Source: Micropruina glycogenica
Lineage (GTDB): Bacteria; Actinomycetota; Actinomycetes; Propionibacteriales; Propionibacteriaceae
DNA: 64,000 nucleotides
Assembly (NCBI RefSeq): GCF_900289045.1
Contig: NZ_LT985188.1
Span: 3,286,001 to 3,350,000 of the forward strand
Reading direction: 5' to 3'
Part shown: positions 48,581 to 55,050 of the stretch, piece after piece
How the letters are laid out: every line of letters begins with the position of its first letter
How positions within the stretch are numbered: the first letter of the stretch is position 1
Translations under genes and position numbers: made by a program
The notes under the pieces: model-generated
Seen by the model: only the letters and a program-made list of their open reading frames with translations
What the model was told of the DNA's origin: nothing
Database searches by the model: none

Positions 48581-48616
48581 GAAGCCCCACGCTAGCGACC
48601 AAGCATCGCCAGTGGA

Positions 48617-48700
48617 TCGCTGATCAACGCGGCTGTCGTTGGTTGAGCGTGTCGAAACCCCTTGCCGCAACAGGTCTCGACAAGCTCGACCAGCGAAAGC
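48617..48700. repeat. About 80-bp dispersed repeat, copy 1
   Basis: The stretch cgctgatcaacgcg...ggttgagcgtgtcgaaacccc...ggtctcgacaagctcgaccagc matches 57046-57125 along its length. Its two halves, GGTTGAGC-GTCGAAACC and GGTCTCGAC-AGCTCGACC, are inverted relative to each other. Confidence 0.75.
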
Positions 48701-48755
48701 CGGCGCTTCCTTGGGAATCGTTGTCGGTGCCGCGTGGTTGAGTGGGTTTGTGAGT

Positions 48756-50630
48756 ATGAGCGGCTGGCAGGTCATGAACTCGATGACCCGCGATTCGTCG
48801 GTGCGCGACCACCGACTCGCGCCGGGCACGCGTCGGCGCGTGCTCAGCTATGCCGCCGCCTACAAGGGCCTGATCGCGGTCTTTCTCGGCCTCACGGTGA
48901 TCGACTCGCTGCTGGTCGTGGCCTCGCCGCTGCTGCTGCAGCGCCTCATCGACGACGGCGTCATACCCGGCAACGCTGGTCTGGTCATTCAGTTGGCGGT
49001 GCTGGTGGCGCTCATCGCCCTGGCCGACGCCACCCTCACCCTGGTCGAGCGCTGGTTCAGTTCGCGCATCGGCGAAGGCCTGATCTACGACCTGCGCACC
49101 CAGGTGTTCGGCCACGTGCTGCGCCAGCCCATCGCGTTCTTCACCCGCGCCCAGACCGGTGCGCTGGTCACCCGGCTCAACAGCGACGTGATCGGCGCCC
49201 AGCAGGCTTTCACCTCGGTGCTGCAGAACCTGGTGGGCAATGCCATCAGCCTGGTGGTGATCGTGGTGGCCATGGCGTCGCTGTCGTGGCAGCTCACCCT
49301 GGGCGCCCTGTTGCTGGTGCCGTTGTTCATCGTTCCGGCTCGCATCATCGGACGGCGCCTGGCCGGCCTCACCCGCCGGCAGATGTCGCTGAACGCCGAG
49401 ATGGGCGCTCAGATGAGCGAACGGTTCAACGTGGCCGGTGCGCTGCTGGTGAAGCTGTTCGGCGACCCGCGCCGTGAAGACGCCGAGTACGCCGACCACG
49501 CGCGTGGCGTTCGTGACGTGGGCGTCACGCTGGCGGTCAACCGGTCGGTGTTCTTCGTGGCCCTCGGCCTGGTGGCCTCGCTCGCCACAGCCATGGTGTA
49601 CGGCTTCGGCGGCGTGATGGCGGTGAACGGGTTGCTCACCGTCGGCACCCTGCTGGCGCTGGCCGCGCTGCTGGCGCGGCTGTACGCGCCGCTGACCGCG
49701 CTGTCGAACGTGCGGGTGGACGTGATGACGGCCCTGGTCTCGTTCGAGCGGGTCTTCGAGGTGCTCGACCTGAAGCCGCTGGTCGAACAGAAGCCCGACG
49801 CCGTCGACATACCCGACGAGCCGGTGCGGGTCGAGATCGATCAGGTGAGCTTTCGCTACCCGTCGGCCGACGAGATCTCACTCGCCTCGCTCGAAGGGGT
49901 CGCCAGCGGCGACCGCAAGGGCAGCGGCGACATTCTGCACGACATCACCTTCGACGTGGTCCCCGGTTCGATGGTGGCCCTGGTCGGCCCCAGCGGCGCC
50001 GGCAAGACCACGATCACCTCGCTGGTCGCCCGGCTGTACGACCCCACCGAGGGCGCGATTCGGGTGAACGGCGTCGACCTGCGTGACGCCACGCTCACCT
50101 CGTTGCATGACCGCGTCGGTGTCGTCACCCAAGAGGCTCACCTGTTTCACGACACGCTGCGCGCCAACCTGCTCTACGCCAAGCCCGAGGCCACCACCGC
50201 CGAACTCGAGGCCGCGCTGCGCGCCGCGCAGGTCTGGCATCTGGTCGAGTCGCTGCCGGCCGGTCTCGACACCGTGGTCGGCGACCGCGGCCACCGGCTC
50301 TCAGGTGGCGAGAAACAGCGGTTCGCGATCGCCCGGCTGCTGCTGAAGGGCCCTGGGCTGGTGGTGCTCGACGAGGCCACCGCACATCTCGACAGCGAGA
50401 GCGAGGCGGCCGTGCAGCGGGCCCTCGACGCGGCGCTGGCCGACCGCACGTCCATCGTGATCGCACACCGGCTGTCGACGGTGCGCGGCGCCGACCAGAT
50501 TCTGGTGGTCGACGACGGGCGCATCGTCGAGCGCGGCAGTCACGTGCAGCTGCTGGCGCAGGGCGGCCTCTACGCCGACCTGTACCGCACGCAGTTCGCC
50601 GAACAGGCGGTCACTGCAGCGCAGACGTGA
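48756..50630 (+). CDS. ABC exporter, fused membrane and ATPase domains
   Basis: The 624-residue half-transporter has six helices in the N-terminal half (with the ABC_membrane fold, RLNSDVIGAQQAF) and a complete ATPase: Walker A GPSGAGKTT near 412, Q-loop VTQEAHLF, signature LSGGEKQRFAIARLL, Walker B LVVLDEATAHLD and the H-loop in IVIAHRLST. It probably works as a homodimer exporting lipids or drugs. I chose ATG 48756, giving MSGWQVM, a start common in actinobacterial homologues, although the frame extends into the repeat upstream. Confidence 0.9.
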   Translation: MSGWQVMNSMTRDSSVRDHRLAPGTRRRVLSYAAAYKGLIAVFLGLTVIDSLLVVASPLLLQRLIDDGVIPGNAGLVIQLAVLVALIALADATLTLVERWFSSRIGEGLIYDLRTQVFGHVLRQPIAFFTRAQTGALVTRLNSDVIGAQQAFTSVLQNLVGNAISLVVIVVAMASLSWQLTLGALLLVPLFIVPARIIGRRLAGLTRRQMSLNAEMGAQMSERFNVAGALLVKLFGDPRREDAEYADHARGVRDVGVTLAVNRSVFFVALGLVASLATAMVYGFGGVMAVNGLLTVGTLLALAALLARLYAPLTALSNVRVDVMTALVSFERVFEVLDLKPLVEQKPDAVDIPDEPVRVEIDQVSFRYPSADEISLASLEGVASGDRKGSGDILHDITFDVVPGSMVALVGPSGAGKTTITSLVARLYDPTEGAIRVNGVDLRDATLTSLHDRVGVVTQEAHLFHDTLRANLLYAKPEATTAELEAALRAAQVWHLVESLPAGLDTVVGDRGHRLSGGEKQRFAIARLLLKGPGLVVLDEATAHLDSESEAAVQRALDAALADRTSIVIAHRLSTVRGADQILVVDDGRIVERGSHVQLLAQGGLYADLYRTQFAEQAVTAAQT

Positions 50631-50695
50631 GCCGGGCGAGGTTGTCGAGCACGGTCGAGCGCAGCGGCTGCTTCAGCCACTCGTCAGGGTGAGTT
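50611..50695 (-). pseudogene. C-terminal fragment of a lost gene
   Basis: On the minus strand the frame HPDEWLKQPLRSTVLDNLAR ends at a TGA (50611-50613) inside the 3' end of the ABC gene. It reads like a genuine protein terminus but has no beginning; the sequence before it belongs to the sigma-like gene. This marks a deletion or insertion junction at about 50.7 kb. The family is not recognised. Confidence 0.4.
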
Positions 50696-51409
50696 GGCGC
50701 GAGGCGTCCCGATACTGTGACTCGACGTCGCGCAACTGATCGACCAAGTCGGCGCCGCGCAGGCGACCGTGGCGAGGACGGGCAGGCCGAGGGTGCGGGC
50801 GACGTCCGCGGCCCGGTAGGGAAGGTTCTCGCCGACCACGACCGCCTGGGCGAGGTGGCTCAGGGCGTCGGTTGAGCGCTTGATCCGGCGCCGGATCGTC
50901 CGTGGCGAGCAGCCGTGCAACTCCCCGATCCGGGCCGAGACCCGGTCGCCGATGATCCCGACTCCAGGTCCCGACGGCGGGACGAGTTGCGCGGCGGCGT
51001 CCATGACGGCCAGCAGCAGGTCGACGTCGTCCTGGCCGATCACCTCGGCCTTGATGCCGTCGCTGGGGATCTCGATCAGTTCCTCGAGCGCGTCCGGTAG
51101 CGGGTCGTCCTGGACGACATCGTCGCCGTCGTGGGGGATCGGGCTGGAGGTCGGGACGAGGTCCTGTAGCACCTTCTTGCGCAGGTTGCGGTTCAGGTTC
51201 GCCGCGACCGGGCCGGTTGTCCGCCAGGGAAAGGTTCGGACGGCGATCCACAGCTGGGCTGCCACGTGGCAGTCGATGTCCTCACTCAACGTCCGCAACT
51301 GGTGGGCCAGCACCGTGGCCGACGGCATCATCACCCACGCCAGCACCAGTGCGGCGTCCGGGCACGCGCCGGCGCCGCAGTGCGCCAGTCTGGCCAGCCC
51401 ACGCAGCAC
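50684..51409 (-). CDS. Sigma-factor-like DNA-binding protein, C-terminus probably altered
   Basis: The 241-codon frame begins LRGLARLAHCGAG, has a helical body (VLAHQLRTLSEDIDCHVAAQ; LWIAVRTFPWR) and a C-terminal helix-turn-helix GCSPRTIRRRIKRSTDAL near 185-200. Similar proteins, resembling sigma-70 family regions, occur on actinobacterial plasmids and integrated elements. The last 50 codons (LPYRAADVARTLGLPVLATV and on) look like a different protein, and another frame reads RGADLVDQLRDVESQYRD, so the 3' end is probably chimeric or frameshifted. The start GTG 51409 is weak; the frame is open a little further upstream. Confidence 0.55.
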   Translation of the reverse strand: MLRGLARLAHCGAGACPDAALVLAWVMMPSATVLAHQLRTLSEDIDCHVAAQLWIAVRTFPWRTTGPVAANLNRNLRKKVLQDLVPTSSPIPHDGDDVVQDDPLPDALEELIEIPSDGIKAEVIGQDDVDLLLAVMDAAAQLVPPSGPGVGIIGDRVSARIGELHGCSPRTIRRRIKRSTDALSHLAQAVVVGENLPYRAADVARTLGLPVLATVACAAPTWSISCATSSHSIGTPRANSP

Positions 51410-51515
51410 CCGGTCGGCGTCCTCGGGTGGCGCCTCCGGAGCCAGTGGGGGTTCCTTCCGTGGGTCCTGAGACCACGGAACCTCACCAAATCGATGTCAC
51501 CAGCGGTGTAACCAA

Positions 51516-51552
51516 CATCTGTGGACAACGACAATTGCGTTATCCACAGATG
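51516..51552. promoter_or_regulatory. Palindrome made of two inverted DnaA boxes
   Basis: TGTGGACAA (51520-51528, inverse of TTGTCCACA) and TTATCCACA (51540-51548) are both consensus DnaA boxes, facing each other across an 11-base loop. The flanks extend the symmetry to 12 of 13 positions (CATC...GATG). Possible part of a replication origin of an integrated element, or a DnaA-controlled promoter for the adjacent gene. Confidence 0.65.
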
Positions 51553-51584
51553 TAGTGAACGTCCTTGCCAACCCACGTTCACTA
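51553..51584. repeat. Inverted repeat next to the DnaA boxes
   Basis: TAGTGAACGT (51553-51562) and ACGTTCACTA (51575-51584) form a perfect 10-bp stem with a 12-base loop, directly abutting the DnaA-box palindrome. A further GGTTCAC follows at 51585, so GTGAAC words occur three times, iteron-like. Confidence 0.7.
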
Positions 51585-51639
51585 GGTTCACCAAGTCACC
51601 GATAGACAGCCTCCTCCGATGCCCAGAGTCGCACCTGTG

Positions 51640-52032
51640 TCAGGCCATCGCGGCAGCCATGCCCGTGAAGTAGGGGACGAGCCAGATGGCCCAGACGACG
51701 ATGCTGAAGCGGTGGAAGGCGCGCTTCTCGTCGGGACGGTTGCGGAGCATGGTGACGACGGCCCAGACGAGGTGCAGCGCCATCAGGATCAGGGCGAGCA
51801 ATCCGGTGATCGCCATGGTCTGGGTCAGGACGGAGTTCTGGTCGACGCCGCTCGGCCCGCCGCTGCCGGCGATCACGCTCATCACCGCGGTGCCGCTGAT
51901 GTCGGCGGCCAGGCCGGCGGCGAATGCCGCGACGTGCCACCAGCGAAGCTCGCCGGAGCGGCGCTCGGCCCAGACTCCGAGTGTGTAGAAGGCCAGCGCG
52001 AGGCTGATCAGGACGATGGCGAGAGCGAGCAT
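51640..52032 (-). CDS. HsmA family membrane protein
   Basis: The 130-residue protein has four membrane helices (MLALAIVLISLALAFYTLGV at the start; VLTQTMAITGLLALILMALH in the middle) and matches the HsmA (TIGR03987-type) proteins in length and pattern: a WAERRSGELRWWHVAAF loop between helices 1 and 2. It follows the DUF2871 gene after only two bases with its own AAGGAG. The pair is commonly found together; the function is unknown, with proposed links to membrane stress. It is probably controlled by the divergent two-component system. Confidence 0.8.
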   Translation of the reverse strand: MLALAIVLISLALAFYTLGVWAERRSGELRWWHVAAFAAGLAADISGTAVMSVIAGSGGPSGVDQNSVLTQTMAITGLLALILMALHLVWAVVTMLRNRPDEKRAFHRFSIVVWAIWLVPYFTGMAAAMA

Positions 52033-52034
52033 GG

Positions 52035-52460
52035 TCAGTTCTCCTTGGTGGCGGTGAGGCGGGTGCGCAGTGGCTTGTCGAGGCAGGCCAGCAGGCAACC
52101 GATGCCGATGGTGAGCAGGATGTGGCCCAGGCCGGCGATGCCGGCGATCGCGGGTCCCGCGTCCTGGCCGAAGACCTGGAGGAGTCCATGCCAGGTCATC
52201 GCGGCCGCGGTGATGAGGAGTCCGACGTTGTAGGTGGTGAAGAACCAGGAGAACCATCGGCTGCCGCTGAGGCCGATGGTGGCGTCGAGGGCGAGGACGA
52301 TCAGCATGACCAGCAGGCCGAGGGCGAGAAAGTGGGTGTGCACCACGGCGAGTTGGGTGTTGCCGGTGAAGTCTCGGGCGTGGGTGATCTCGCGGTAGAA
52401 CAGTCCGCCGGCCAGGCCGAGTGTGGCGTACGCGATGGCGGCCAGGTAGAGCCGTCGCAT
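52035..52460 (-). CDS. DUF2871 membrane protein
   Basis: The 141-residue protein has four membrane helices, with AVVHTHFLALGLLVMLIVLA and a WFFTTYNVGLLITAAAMTWHG stretch; conserved His in two helices hints at metal or haem ligation. It is the first gene of the DUF2871-HsmA pair, transcribed divergently from the histidine kinase across 181 bases. An ATG with GGAGG is well placed. DUF2871 has no known function. Confidence 0.82.
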   Translation of the reverse strand: MRRLYLAAIAYATLGLAGGLFYREITHARDFTGNTQLAVVHTHFLALGLLVMLIVLALDATIGLSGSRWFSWFFTTYNVGLLITAAAMTWHGLLQVFGQDAGPAIAGIAGLGHILLTIGIGCLLACLDKPLRTRLTATKEN

Positions 52461-52641
52461 GGTTACCTCCTTGGTTGGGGCGGGTGTGTCAGCAGGTCCT
52501 GAGTTCAGCTGTCCTCAATGCTGCTGTTGGGGCGGCTTCGGGACATCGGGCGTCGGGATGGTCCCGGGTGGCCGTTCGGTGGGCTCCCGACTCCACCTTT
52601 CGGCTGACGTCGAGCGCAGCACGGCCGACTAGAGTGCCCGC

Positions 52642-53826
52642 GTGGAGCTGGGTTCGGAGCGGGTCGCGCGCCGCCTCATGGCCGGTCTGGACCTGCTGGC
52701 CGGGCTGCTGCTGGTGGTGGCACTCATGCCCCCGACCGGGTGGGCCTGGGCTGCCGGTGCCGCGTTCGCGACCTGCTGGGTCGTGGTCCGGCTGAGGGTG
52801 CGGGTGCTCGGTGAGCCGATGGACGCCCGCGGCGGATCTTGGCTGGCGGTTGCGGCTGCGTCCGGCCTGTTGGCCTGCTACGTCCTGGTGCTGGCGGCCA
52901 GTGCCTCGGGAATGTGGCTGGCCTTTCCGGTCATGCTGCTGCAGTTGCACCTGCTCGGACCCCGCAGCGGCGTGGTCGCGGTCACCCTGACCACCGTGGC
53001 TGCGGTTGTCCTCGGGGCCGTCTCCCGGGGCGAGGCCGGCCTGGGCTACGTACTGGGCCCGGTGGTCGGGGCGCTGGTGGCGGTGGCCTCGGTGGTGGGG
53101 CTAGAGTCGCTGGCGCGCATCGTCGCCGACCGCCAGCGTGCCCTCGACGACTTGGAGGACGCGCAACAACGGCTGCTGGCCGCCGAACGGGACCGGCTCC
53201 GGGCCGAGGAACGGGCAAACCTGGCCCGCGACATCCACGATACCCTCGCCCAGGACTTCGCCGCCGTCGAGCTGCACCTGCGCCGGGCCGCGACCCTCCT
53301 GGCCCCCGGCGATCCCGCAGCACCCTCGGTCGCCCTCGCCCAGCAGGCGACCGCTGAAGGGCTGGCCCAGGCCCGCCGCTTCCTCGCCGGAGGACCGGGC
53401 CATCGGATGGACGCCACGCTGTTGGGAGCAGTGCGCCACGCCGCGGAACGGGCGCAGGCCGATAGTGGTGGACGGACCTTGATCGAGGTCCGTGCCATGG
53501 GAAGTGAACCCGCTCTGTCCGCCGACCTGGCCACCGGGATCCTGCGGATGACGCAGTCCGCGCTGTCCAACGTCGTCCGGCATGCGGACGCCACCAGCGC
53601 CGCCGTCACCCTGACCTGGGAGCCCGACCGCGTGCTGCTGGACATCGTCGACGACGGTCGCGGCTTCGATCCGGACGGTCACACGGACACAACCGGTGGA
53701 GGGTTCGGTCTGCCGTCGCTGCGTTCGCGCGTCAGGGACCTCGGCGGGACTCTCGGTTTCGAGTCACAACCCGGCGAAGGGACGGCGATCGCCATCACCC
53801 TGCCGCTCGGATCGGAGCAGGGATGA
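52642..53826 (+). CDS. Sensor histidine kinase (HisKA_3, NarL-type system)
   Basis: The 394-residue kinase has five or so N-terminal helices (about 10-165), a coiled coil, the phospho-acceptor box NLARDIHDTLAQDFAAVELH near 194-213, and a HATPase domain with DIVDDGRGFDPDG and GGFGLPSLRSRVRDLGG. Start GTG 52642 follows CCGC without a strong ribosome site. Its stop overlaps the response regulator (ATGA). The system faces the DUF2871-HsmA pair and probably governs it. Codon choice (ATC before C) is freer than in the surrounding core genes. Confidence 0.9.
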   Translation: MELGSERVARRLMAGLDLLAGLLLVVALMPPTGWAWAAGAAFATCWVVVRLRVRVLGEPMDARGGSWLAVAAASGLLACYVLVLAASASGMWLAFPVMLLQLHLLGPRSGVVAVTLTTVAAVVLGAVSRGEAGLGYVLGPVVGALVAVASVVGLESLARIVADRQRALDDLEDAQQRLLAAERDRLRAEERANLARDIHDTLAQDFAAVELHLRRAATLLAPGDPAAPSVALAQQATAEGLAQARRFLAGGPGHRMDATLLGAVRHAAERAQADSGGRTLIEVRAMGSEPALSADLATGILRMTQSALSNVVRHADATSAAVTLTWEPDRVLLDIVDDGRGFDPDGHTDTTGGGFGLPSLRSRVRDLGGTLGFESQPGEGTAIAITLPLGSEQG

Positions 53827-54443
53827 TCCGGGTCGCGCTCGCCGACGACCACCCCGTCGTCCGTGCCGGCGTGGTCAGCGTCCTGGAAGGGCTCAGCGAC
53901 GTCACGGTCGCCGCCCAGTTCGGCAGCGCCGAGGACCTCCTGGCCTGGCTGGACGGCCACAGCTGCGACCTCCTCCTGCTCGACCTCCACTTCGGCGACG
54001 GGCTCATCAGCGGCGCCGAGGCCACTCGGCGCATCACGGCGTCCGGTGGGCCCGCCGTGCTCATCCTCACCACCTACGCCACGGACGCCGACATCCTCAC
54101 CGCCCTGGACGCCGGCGCGAGCGGCTACCTGCTCAAGGACGCCCCCACCGCCGAACTCGAACAAGCGATCCGAGCCGCCGCGGTGGGCCAGCCCGCGCTG
54201 TCCCCAGCCGTCCAGCAGCGCCTCATGCGACGCGTCCTCGACCCCGCCACGACCCTGACCCTGCGAGAACTGGACGTCCTCCGGCTCGCCGCAGACGGGC
54301 TGTCGAACGCCCAGATCGCCGGGCGCCTCTACCTCACCCTGGCAACCGTGAAGTCCCACCTCGCCCACACCTACGCCAAGCTCGGCGCACAGTCCCGGAC
54401 AGCGGCAATCGCCACCGCCAGAGAGCGCGGCCTGCTCACCTGA
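53823..54443 (+). CDS. NarL/FixJ-family response regulator
   Basis: The 206-residue regulator has a receiver (ALADDHPVVRAGVVS; phospho-acceptor in LLLLDLHFG near 54-60) and a LuxR helix-turn-helix (LTLRELDVLRLAADGLSNAQ with RLYLTLATVKSHL near 140-180). It is translationally coupled to its kinase. Its gene ends 520 bases before the tRNA-Ser gene. Confidence 0.92.
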   Translation: MIRVALADDHPVVRAGVVSVLEGLSDVTVAAQFGSAEDLLAWLDGHSCDLLLLDLHFGDGLISGAEATRRITASGGPAVLILTTYATDADILTALDAGASGYLLKDAPTAELEQAIRAAAVGQPALSPAVQQRLMRRVLDPATTLTLRELDVLRLAADGLSNAQIAGRLYLTLATVKSHLAHTYAKLGAQSRTAAIATARERGLLT

Positions 54444-54621
54444 ACTCACGCGCTCGCCGATCCAGCGGACTCCATGACATCCCGATCCGGCAGAATCACG
54501 CTCCTCGCCCAGAAGCGGAACCGTGGTCATGATCGGACTCCCAGCCTGCCGGGTCGGCGGGGTGTTCTACCCGGCGGCGGTGCAGTAGGTCACAGTGTTC
54601 CCCGCCGCACCGCGATTGTTC

Positions 54622-54732
54622 CTAGCGATTGGGGAGAAAAGCCCAGTGTTCCCAGGCACCGCCGCCGGGGTGTGAGCCGCTGATCGGAACGAGTGTGCCG
54701 AACGGTGCCTTCTGGAACAGTTTGACGTCCAC
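54622..54732 (-). pseudogene. Fic-family N-terminal fragment
   Basis: Thirty-six codons from GTG 54732 read VDVKLFQKAPFGTLVPISGS and HWAFLPNR before a stop, resembling the N-terminal segment of some Fic/DOC proteins (VPISG, then an F-P-x-P anchor). The catalytic Fic domain is absent. In the gap 54444-54962 nothing else is convincing; the stretch next to the tRNA has the look of a degraded integrase end, which I cannot prove. Confidence 0.4.
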
Positions 54733-54962
54733 AATGCGACACTACTGGCAGTTGTGGAAACTTTCATCGATGTGATTGATCCAGAGGCCGCAACGCGACG
54801 AAGCACTCGCGCAGGCCTCGCGCGGCGACTGCGTGCATCGCGAGGACGACGGCGCGAGGACCACGAGAAAGATAGCGCACATTTAGCGCACGAGATGGCC
54901 GTTGGGTCGACGTGCAACCTCTCAAACTGAGGTTTCACCCCTAGCCAGACTGGGAACGGCAC

Positions 54963-55050
54963 TGGCGGAGGATACGAGATTCGAACTCGTGAGGGTGTGA
55001 ACCCAACCCGCTTTCCAAGCGAGCGCCATAGGCCTCTAGGCGAATCCTCC
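54963..55050 (-). tRNA. tRNA-Ser (anticodon GGA)
   Basis: The minus strand folds as a class II tRNA: acceptor GGAGGAT pairs with ATCCTCC, the anticodon loop is CTTGGAAAG with GGA, a long variable arm follows, the T loop is GTTCGAATC, and CCA is encoded. It reads UCC and UCU Ser codons. Its 3' end faces the 50.6-54.9 kb island, the usual position for an integration site. Confidence 0.95.

Follow-up and report, generated by a model that had tools for sequence, protein, structure and literature searches.

Iterons together with DnaA boxes are known from the replication origins of theta plasmids, and the dnaA gene, through its autoregulation, has a DnaA-regulated promoter. Such a promoter is also found in front of sda in Bacillus subtilis, according to the available part of PMC4447404. 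The locus described here is similar to these promoters, as far as they are covered there, in that its promoter region contains DnaA-type 9-mers, singly or several together, but differs from them in that the boxes recur at promoters for DNA uptake, pili, and conjugation, with DnaA being a candidate reader. With theta-plasmid origins it shares the direct repeats beside DnaA-type boxes; here, however, there are several copies per genome, they are located in operon leaders, and the boxes are dispensable across clades. The integrative conjugative elements (ICEs) of Actinobacteria, with their MobF relaxase and SCO6880-type type IV secretion system (T4SS), are matched by TrwC/MobF, TraG/TraD, TrbL, the SCO6880 family, a VirB4-like ATPase, and a tyrosine recombinase beside one element, whereas the elements found here add a Tad-pilus module and leaders with DnaA-type boxes, and the window holds a relic only. 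Competence regulation in Actinobacteria is little known, and a ComK-type cascade is not reported for it, as far as the available parts of PMC4322843 and PMC8467076 tell. The Tad/Flp-dependent competence of Micrococcus luteus treated there involves comEA-comEC and tad genes, and genes of these types are the ones at which the box is found here, but no such promoter box is described in these parts, and the word DnaA is absent from both main texts. Within titles and the beginnings of abstracts, a scope that leaves most subscription papers outside, the literature searched shows no earlier report of DnaA boxes at comEA or tad promoters.

The window, which is the whole analysed stretch of 64,000 nucleotides from Micropruina glycogenica, contains two DnaA-type 9-mers (TTRTCCACA) inverted to each other and, after them, a perfect inverted repeat of 10 bp. 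The preliminary description had reported both, together with a third GTGAAC word and a position far from the chromosomal dnaA, and all of this can be read directly from the sequence, the separation from dnaA being about 266 kb. In one scan of genome contigs the closest relatives of the ORF beside the site were L005, L006, and L007, which are metagenome contigs. The features are as follows:

51516-51552, no strand: inverted repeat enclosing both boxes, 15-bp arms with 14 of 15 positions paired; the arms are CATCTGTGGACAACG (51516-51530) and CGTTATCCACAGATG (51538-51552)
51520-51528, minus strand: DnaA-type box 2, TGTGGACAA on the plus and TTGTCCACA on the minus strand; forward relative to the relic gene, at the same place in close relatives
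51540-51548, plus strand: DnaA-type box 1, TTATCCACA, which is TGTGGATAA relative to the relic gene
51553-51562 and 51575-51584: perfect 10-bp inverted repeat, TAGTGAACGT and ACGTTCACTA
51553-51562, plus strand: inverted iteron copy, one arm of the 10-bp inverted repeat with 51575-51584
51555-51560 (plus), 51577-51582 (minus), and 51586-51591 (minus): GTGAAC words
51577-51591, minus strand: iteron pair of two direct GTGAAC words, seen by eye
51563-51571, minus strand: TTGGCAAGG, a member of the -35-like TTGNCAAGG anchor
51493-51513, minus strand: the words GGTTACACC and GGTGACATC, which lie downstream of box 2 and recur in L005, L006, and L007
51446-51618, minus strand: leader of the element, with about 92% identity to L005/L006, the BLASTN matches stopping at 51618 and 51609
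50845-51446, minus strand: remnant of the gene that heads the module, with about 89% identity to L005/L006 (BLASTN)
At 51446, minus strand: deletion, 126 bp including the start codon are gone
50760-50859, minus strand: fragment whose counterpart in L005 is located 2.8 kb further downstream, marking a second internal deletion

Two TTRTCCACA words per 64 kb mean little alone (the mean in shuffled sequences is 0.40, and at least two occur in 8 of 100 shuffles). As an inverted pair with a gap of 5-20 nt, the site is the sole instance in the 3.84-Mb genome, and the reversed-pattern control gave 0; the whole genome has 40 TTRTCCACA words versus 21 of the reversed word. The leader has a GC content of 0.48-0.54 versus 0.76 in the adjoining gene stretch. 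A scan of the site for the sigma-70 consensus gave no match, and a search of the locus for a terminator-like site found none.

The minus-strand ORF 50684-51409 is a truncated member of the heading-gene family, a family without a Pfam match above the cut-off. When window positions 48601-55000 were compared by BLASTN with L005-L007, the element match was confined to the roughly 860 bp of 50760-51618, and the relaxase, coupling protein, T4SS, and integrase of the element were absent from the window copy in this comparison. The L005 counterpart of the 50760-50859 fragment lies inside a gene that we call cpaE-like by eye; the counterpart of this gene at L016:7548-8384 has no match in Pfam. The site is thus not an island but a decayed relic with two internal deletions. 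The neighbouring gene had been called plasmid-like, and it does derive from a mobile element. The stretches compared within the genus contain the ABC-transporter neighbour, with neither the relic nor its other neighbours found next to it. A tRNA-Ser(gga) gene at 54963-55050 of the window, about 3.3 kb from the relic, may be a candidate integration target.

The genome of M. glycogenica contains an element at about 812-845 kb (L016/L017), whose T4SS module is headed by the same gene family. Its Pfam content comprises SAF, T2SSE, T2SSF, TrbL, the SCO6880 family, VirB4-like, transglycosylase, and TraG/TraD domains, and a LysM domain is just below the cut-off. The relaxase (L017:12420-17948, 1842 aa) is a fusion of TrwC, AAA_30 (an SF1-type helicase), and a DnaG/Toprim primase. 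In L005-L007 it is the pilus (Tad) module that begins with a member of this gene family, and in L018, L193, and L194 the heading gene is, by eye, upstream of T4SS-type genes. Relaxase, coupling protein, and T4SS are present in L017 and a tyrosine recombinase (L074) adjoins an element of genome G002, so that the hallmark genes of an ICE are complete when pooled over relatives and not within one and the same element. Judged by this gene content, the source of the relic is taken to be an ICE of the Tad, T4SS, and MobF type. The heading-gene family was detected in 49 of the 198 genomes of the bacterial family (E 0.001) and in 78 of 391 genomes of the order (E 1e-10), and one member is plasmid-borne beside similar modules. 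A weak sigma-like match in one member only (E 0.04) is a lead at best; the predicted structure of the product, based on three alignment rows, is too poor for a structure search (mean pLDDT 52.9), and a search of solved structures with the product gave a single match with an E of 0.56. At about 4380-4830 of L016 the Tad module opens, by eye, with a box-free iteron leader and a small HTH/excisionase-like ORF instead of the heading gene.

The preliminary description had suggested looking for the motif on related elements, and it is indeed found in the leaders of related conjugative elements. Leaders were extracted for the better matches of the heading-gene searches, giving 61 from the family, among them that of the window, 30 from a second family in the order, and the one of the plasmid copy. 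Defining a box as an exact T[TC][AG]TCCACA at -200 to -40, 28 of the 61 family leaders contain one versus 0.44 expected from shuffles and 0 of 60 in control stretches, although near-duplicates such as L034/L064 are included and the leaders share ancestry, so that their counts are not independent events. Removing redundancy at 75% leaves a box in 17 of 42 family leaders (0.25 in shuffles), and at 65% in 6 of 21. Because an exact box is missing in 33 of the 61 family leaders, in each of the 30 from the other family (0 of 16 and 0 of 10 after redundancy removal at 75% and 65%), and in that of the plasmid copy, the boxes seem to be dispensable in some elements. Relative to the gene, eight of the 28 box-bearing leaders have an inverted pair, 15 only reverse, and five only forward boxes, and in 14 of the 28 the reverse box (box 1) is located 19-20 nt after CAAGG. 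The palindrome itself is not conserved since L058, with two exact boxes, and L039, with one exact and one near box, carry them in the same direction. The 11-mer CTGTGGATAAC of the dnaA promoter, which contains TTATCCACA, is identical to box 1 of many leaders. A TANNNT word at a fixed distance after box 2 was not found in the ICE leaders.

Many leaders also have, as seen by eye, two direct repeats of 10-11 bp, accompanied by a TTGNCAAGG or TGACNAGG word and by additional copies of the repeat in either orientation; in the other family, some leaders, such as L135-L138, lack this pattern of repeats and anchor. The repeat word varies with the clade and can be GGGGACAT, GTGAAC, GCGGACAT, GGGGAAC, or GGGGTACG, as expected if it co-evolves with a protein of the element. 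The GTGAAC words and the 10-bp inverted repeat of the window are the element's own iterons of this kind. The intact element of M. glycogenica has degenerate boxes only in L012 and none in L016. More than one box-bearing leader per genome was found in G142, G148, and G151, and one element of G002 has two leaders of one architecture, with an exact box in L025 and a degenerate one in L065.

Because the other box pairs of M. glycogenica were followed up, a pattern at host promoters was found. At least one exact box within the upstream 300 nt is present in 22 of 30 loci of the cpaB/SAF gene and in 19 of 30 loci of a pilin-like gene (DUF4244), these loci being the best 30 of 182 and 129 positive genomes, respectively, while the control stretches at -900 to -600 have one in 2 and in 1 of the 30 loci, respectively. 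For comEA the box was found in 14 of 20 hand-picked genomes from three genera (13, 6, and 1), whereas the control stretches within comEA have it in 0 of 20. With 500 permutations of the letters of the 9-mer, the count always stays below the observed one in each of four promoter sets. The identity of ComEA was checked with Pfam in 2 of the 20 scanned, and those of SAF, DUF4244, UPF0102, RecA, SSB, and DUF222 were checked as well. The six genomes missing the box at comEA have one-mismatch forms at best; M. glycogenica is among them, and its comEA locus (L312) has no exact box. The ComEC loci (L282-L311), which seem mostly to start inside comEA, contain one box in 30. The box is therefore a motif enriched at comEA and tad promoters compared to the controls, with comEA tested in three genera.

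At the host genes the placement is partly regular. Over 49 forward sites the motif is G-T[TC][AG]TCCACA-G, with frequencies of 0.92 for the preceding and 0.76 for the following G, and GATTT follows at several sites. The box points toward the gene for 26 of 28 boxes at cpaB and 23 of 24 at the pilin-like gene; the comEA promoters with a box have it forward in 10 of 14 cases and only reverse in four. Of the 22 forward-box promoters of cpaB, 20 have a -10-like TANNNT that starts 47-49 nt after the start of the box, for which a simple independence model ignoring shared ancestry gives a chance of about 1e-37. A weaker regularity is a TGAC at 23-24 nt in 5 of 10 comEA and 4 of 19 pilin-like rows. 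The element leaders differ from the host promoters in box orientation, which at cpaB and the pilin-like genes is nearly always forward.

Inverted pairs with a gap of 4-14 nt occur at 69 sites in 53 of the 198 family genomes, counting two identical G145 sites at contig ends that are perhaps one, and the reversed pattern occurs twice. Eight of the 69 are element leaders, and the surroundings were examined for 29 plus 20 sites. Box pairs or single boxes are also found, as single cases in M. glycogenica or elsewhere in the family, near UPF0102/yraN, recA, ssb-type, DUF222-HNH, DUF559/AbiEi-type, GIY-YIG, and sigma-70 genes (Pfam) and near parA-like genes (by eye); one neighbour, L343, has no Pfam match. 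Inverted pairs about 33 bp apart directly precede DUF222-HNH (13E12-type) genes at G000:C1 271834/271867, 1524329/1524362, and 2801833/2801865 (L281, L277, and L279; the identity is from Pfam for L281 and from similar protein starts for L277 and L279). In M. glycogenica, single boxes are located about 40-60 nt before AbiEi, DUF559, or (weakly) MTES_1575-type genes in L266, L267, L268, and L275. Box palindromes precede UPF0102 (yraN) genes in L344 and L350 (by Pfam) and L351 (by eye). In many bacteria, UPF0102 (yraN) genes precede comM-dprA.

Taken together, the site is probably the promoter or leader of a dead ICE fragment, and the box would be a transcriptional element common to competence, pilus, and conjugation promoters. 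In living copies the leader precedes the gene that heads the pilus or T4SS module. The iterons around the -35-like TTGNCAAGG are probably bound by a regulator encoded by the element; beside them the leader carries a box of the host type, T[TC][AG]TCCACA, or two of these. At host genes the box seems to be placed like an activator site, upstream of the core promoters of DNA-uptake and Tad-pilus genes; the conjugative elements carry the same box before their pilus and T4SS modules in another geometry. If the boxes control transcription, conjugation and competence/pilus genes would therefore be under one host signal. The likeliest candidate for the reader of the boxes is DnaA because it is the only protein found in the genome with a DnaA box-binding domain: domain IV (PF08299) is present once in M. 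glycogenica and in 193 of the 198 family genomes, in 2 of them with two copies.

Another protein could however read the same target, and a competence or pilus regulator with a DnaA-box-like site, whose operator the element borrowed, is a serious rival to which we give a real if clearly minor chance. It would account for the box before a -10-like word in one main orientation at the cpaB and pilin-like promoters and for flanks extending past the 9-mer (the G before, the G after, and GATTT), and the available parts of PMC8467076 and PMC4322843 name no competence regulator of the phylum. On the other hand, the variation of the box (T/C at position 2, A/G at position 3) equals that of the three strict boxes in the dnaA region of the genome, and, as said, only one protein with the binding domain is encoded. 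That the box pair is meaningless, being due to chance or pure ancestry, has next to no probability: although two boxes per 64 kb are not rare, the permuted words never reach the counts at the promoters. Hardly more credible is an RNA hairpin in the leader or a transcription terminator. The 15-bp arms with their one mismatch would fit, and close relatives have similar arms, but the boxes of L058 and L039 are in the same orientation, 20 of the 28 box-bearing leaders are without an exact inverted pair, and no terminator-like site was found.

The preliminary description had left open whether the site is the origin of an excised circle of the island or a DnaA-controlled promoter. If it were an origin (oriV), replication of the excised circle would begin from DnaA and a protein of the element bound to the boxes and iterons. 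The iterons do adjoin DnaA-type boxes as in theta-plasmid origins, the leader is less GC-rich than the adjoining gene, and the relaxase of the element is fused to a DnaG-type primase. An origin should however be one conserved locus per replicon with boxes kept across the family, and what we find are several box-bearing leaders per genome, two like leaders in one G002 element, no boxes in the other family's leaders or the plasmid copy, the same boxes at host comEA, cpaB, and pilin-like promoters, and no replication initiator family among the scanned proteins. The origin reading fails because of this copy number, the absence of boxes in relatives, and their presence at host promoters, and with only a relic of about 860 bp in place of an island we consider it improbable. 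What stands of the proposal is a promoter region with DnaA-type boxes, DnaA being the candidate reader.

For the biology of the Propionibacteriaceae, the promoter reading has a wider implication, which is rather doubtful as a whole and offered tentatively. DnaA, or whatever protein reads the 9-mer, might be the missing competence regulator, one that activates comEA-comEC, the Tad pili, and genes for recombination, and ICEs might carry the same operator so that transformation and conjugation fire together depending on the replication state. The same boxes before DNA-uptake and pilus genes and before a relic of conjugation hint that the two kinds of gene transfer have a switch in common. With a 9-mer in front of comEA, cpaB, and pilin-like genes, competence regulation becomes directly accessible. 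If the ICEs truly obey the same box, natural transformation and conjugation would be linked at the level of the promoter, with replication stress as a conceivable common trigger of both.
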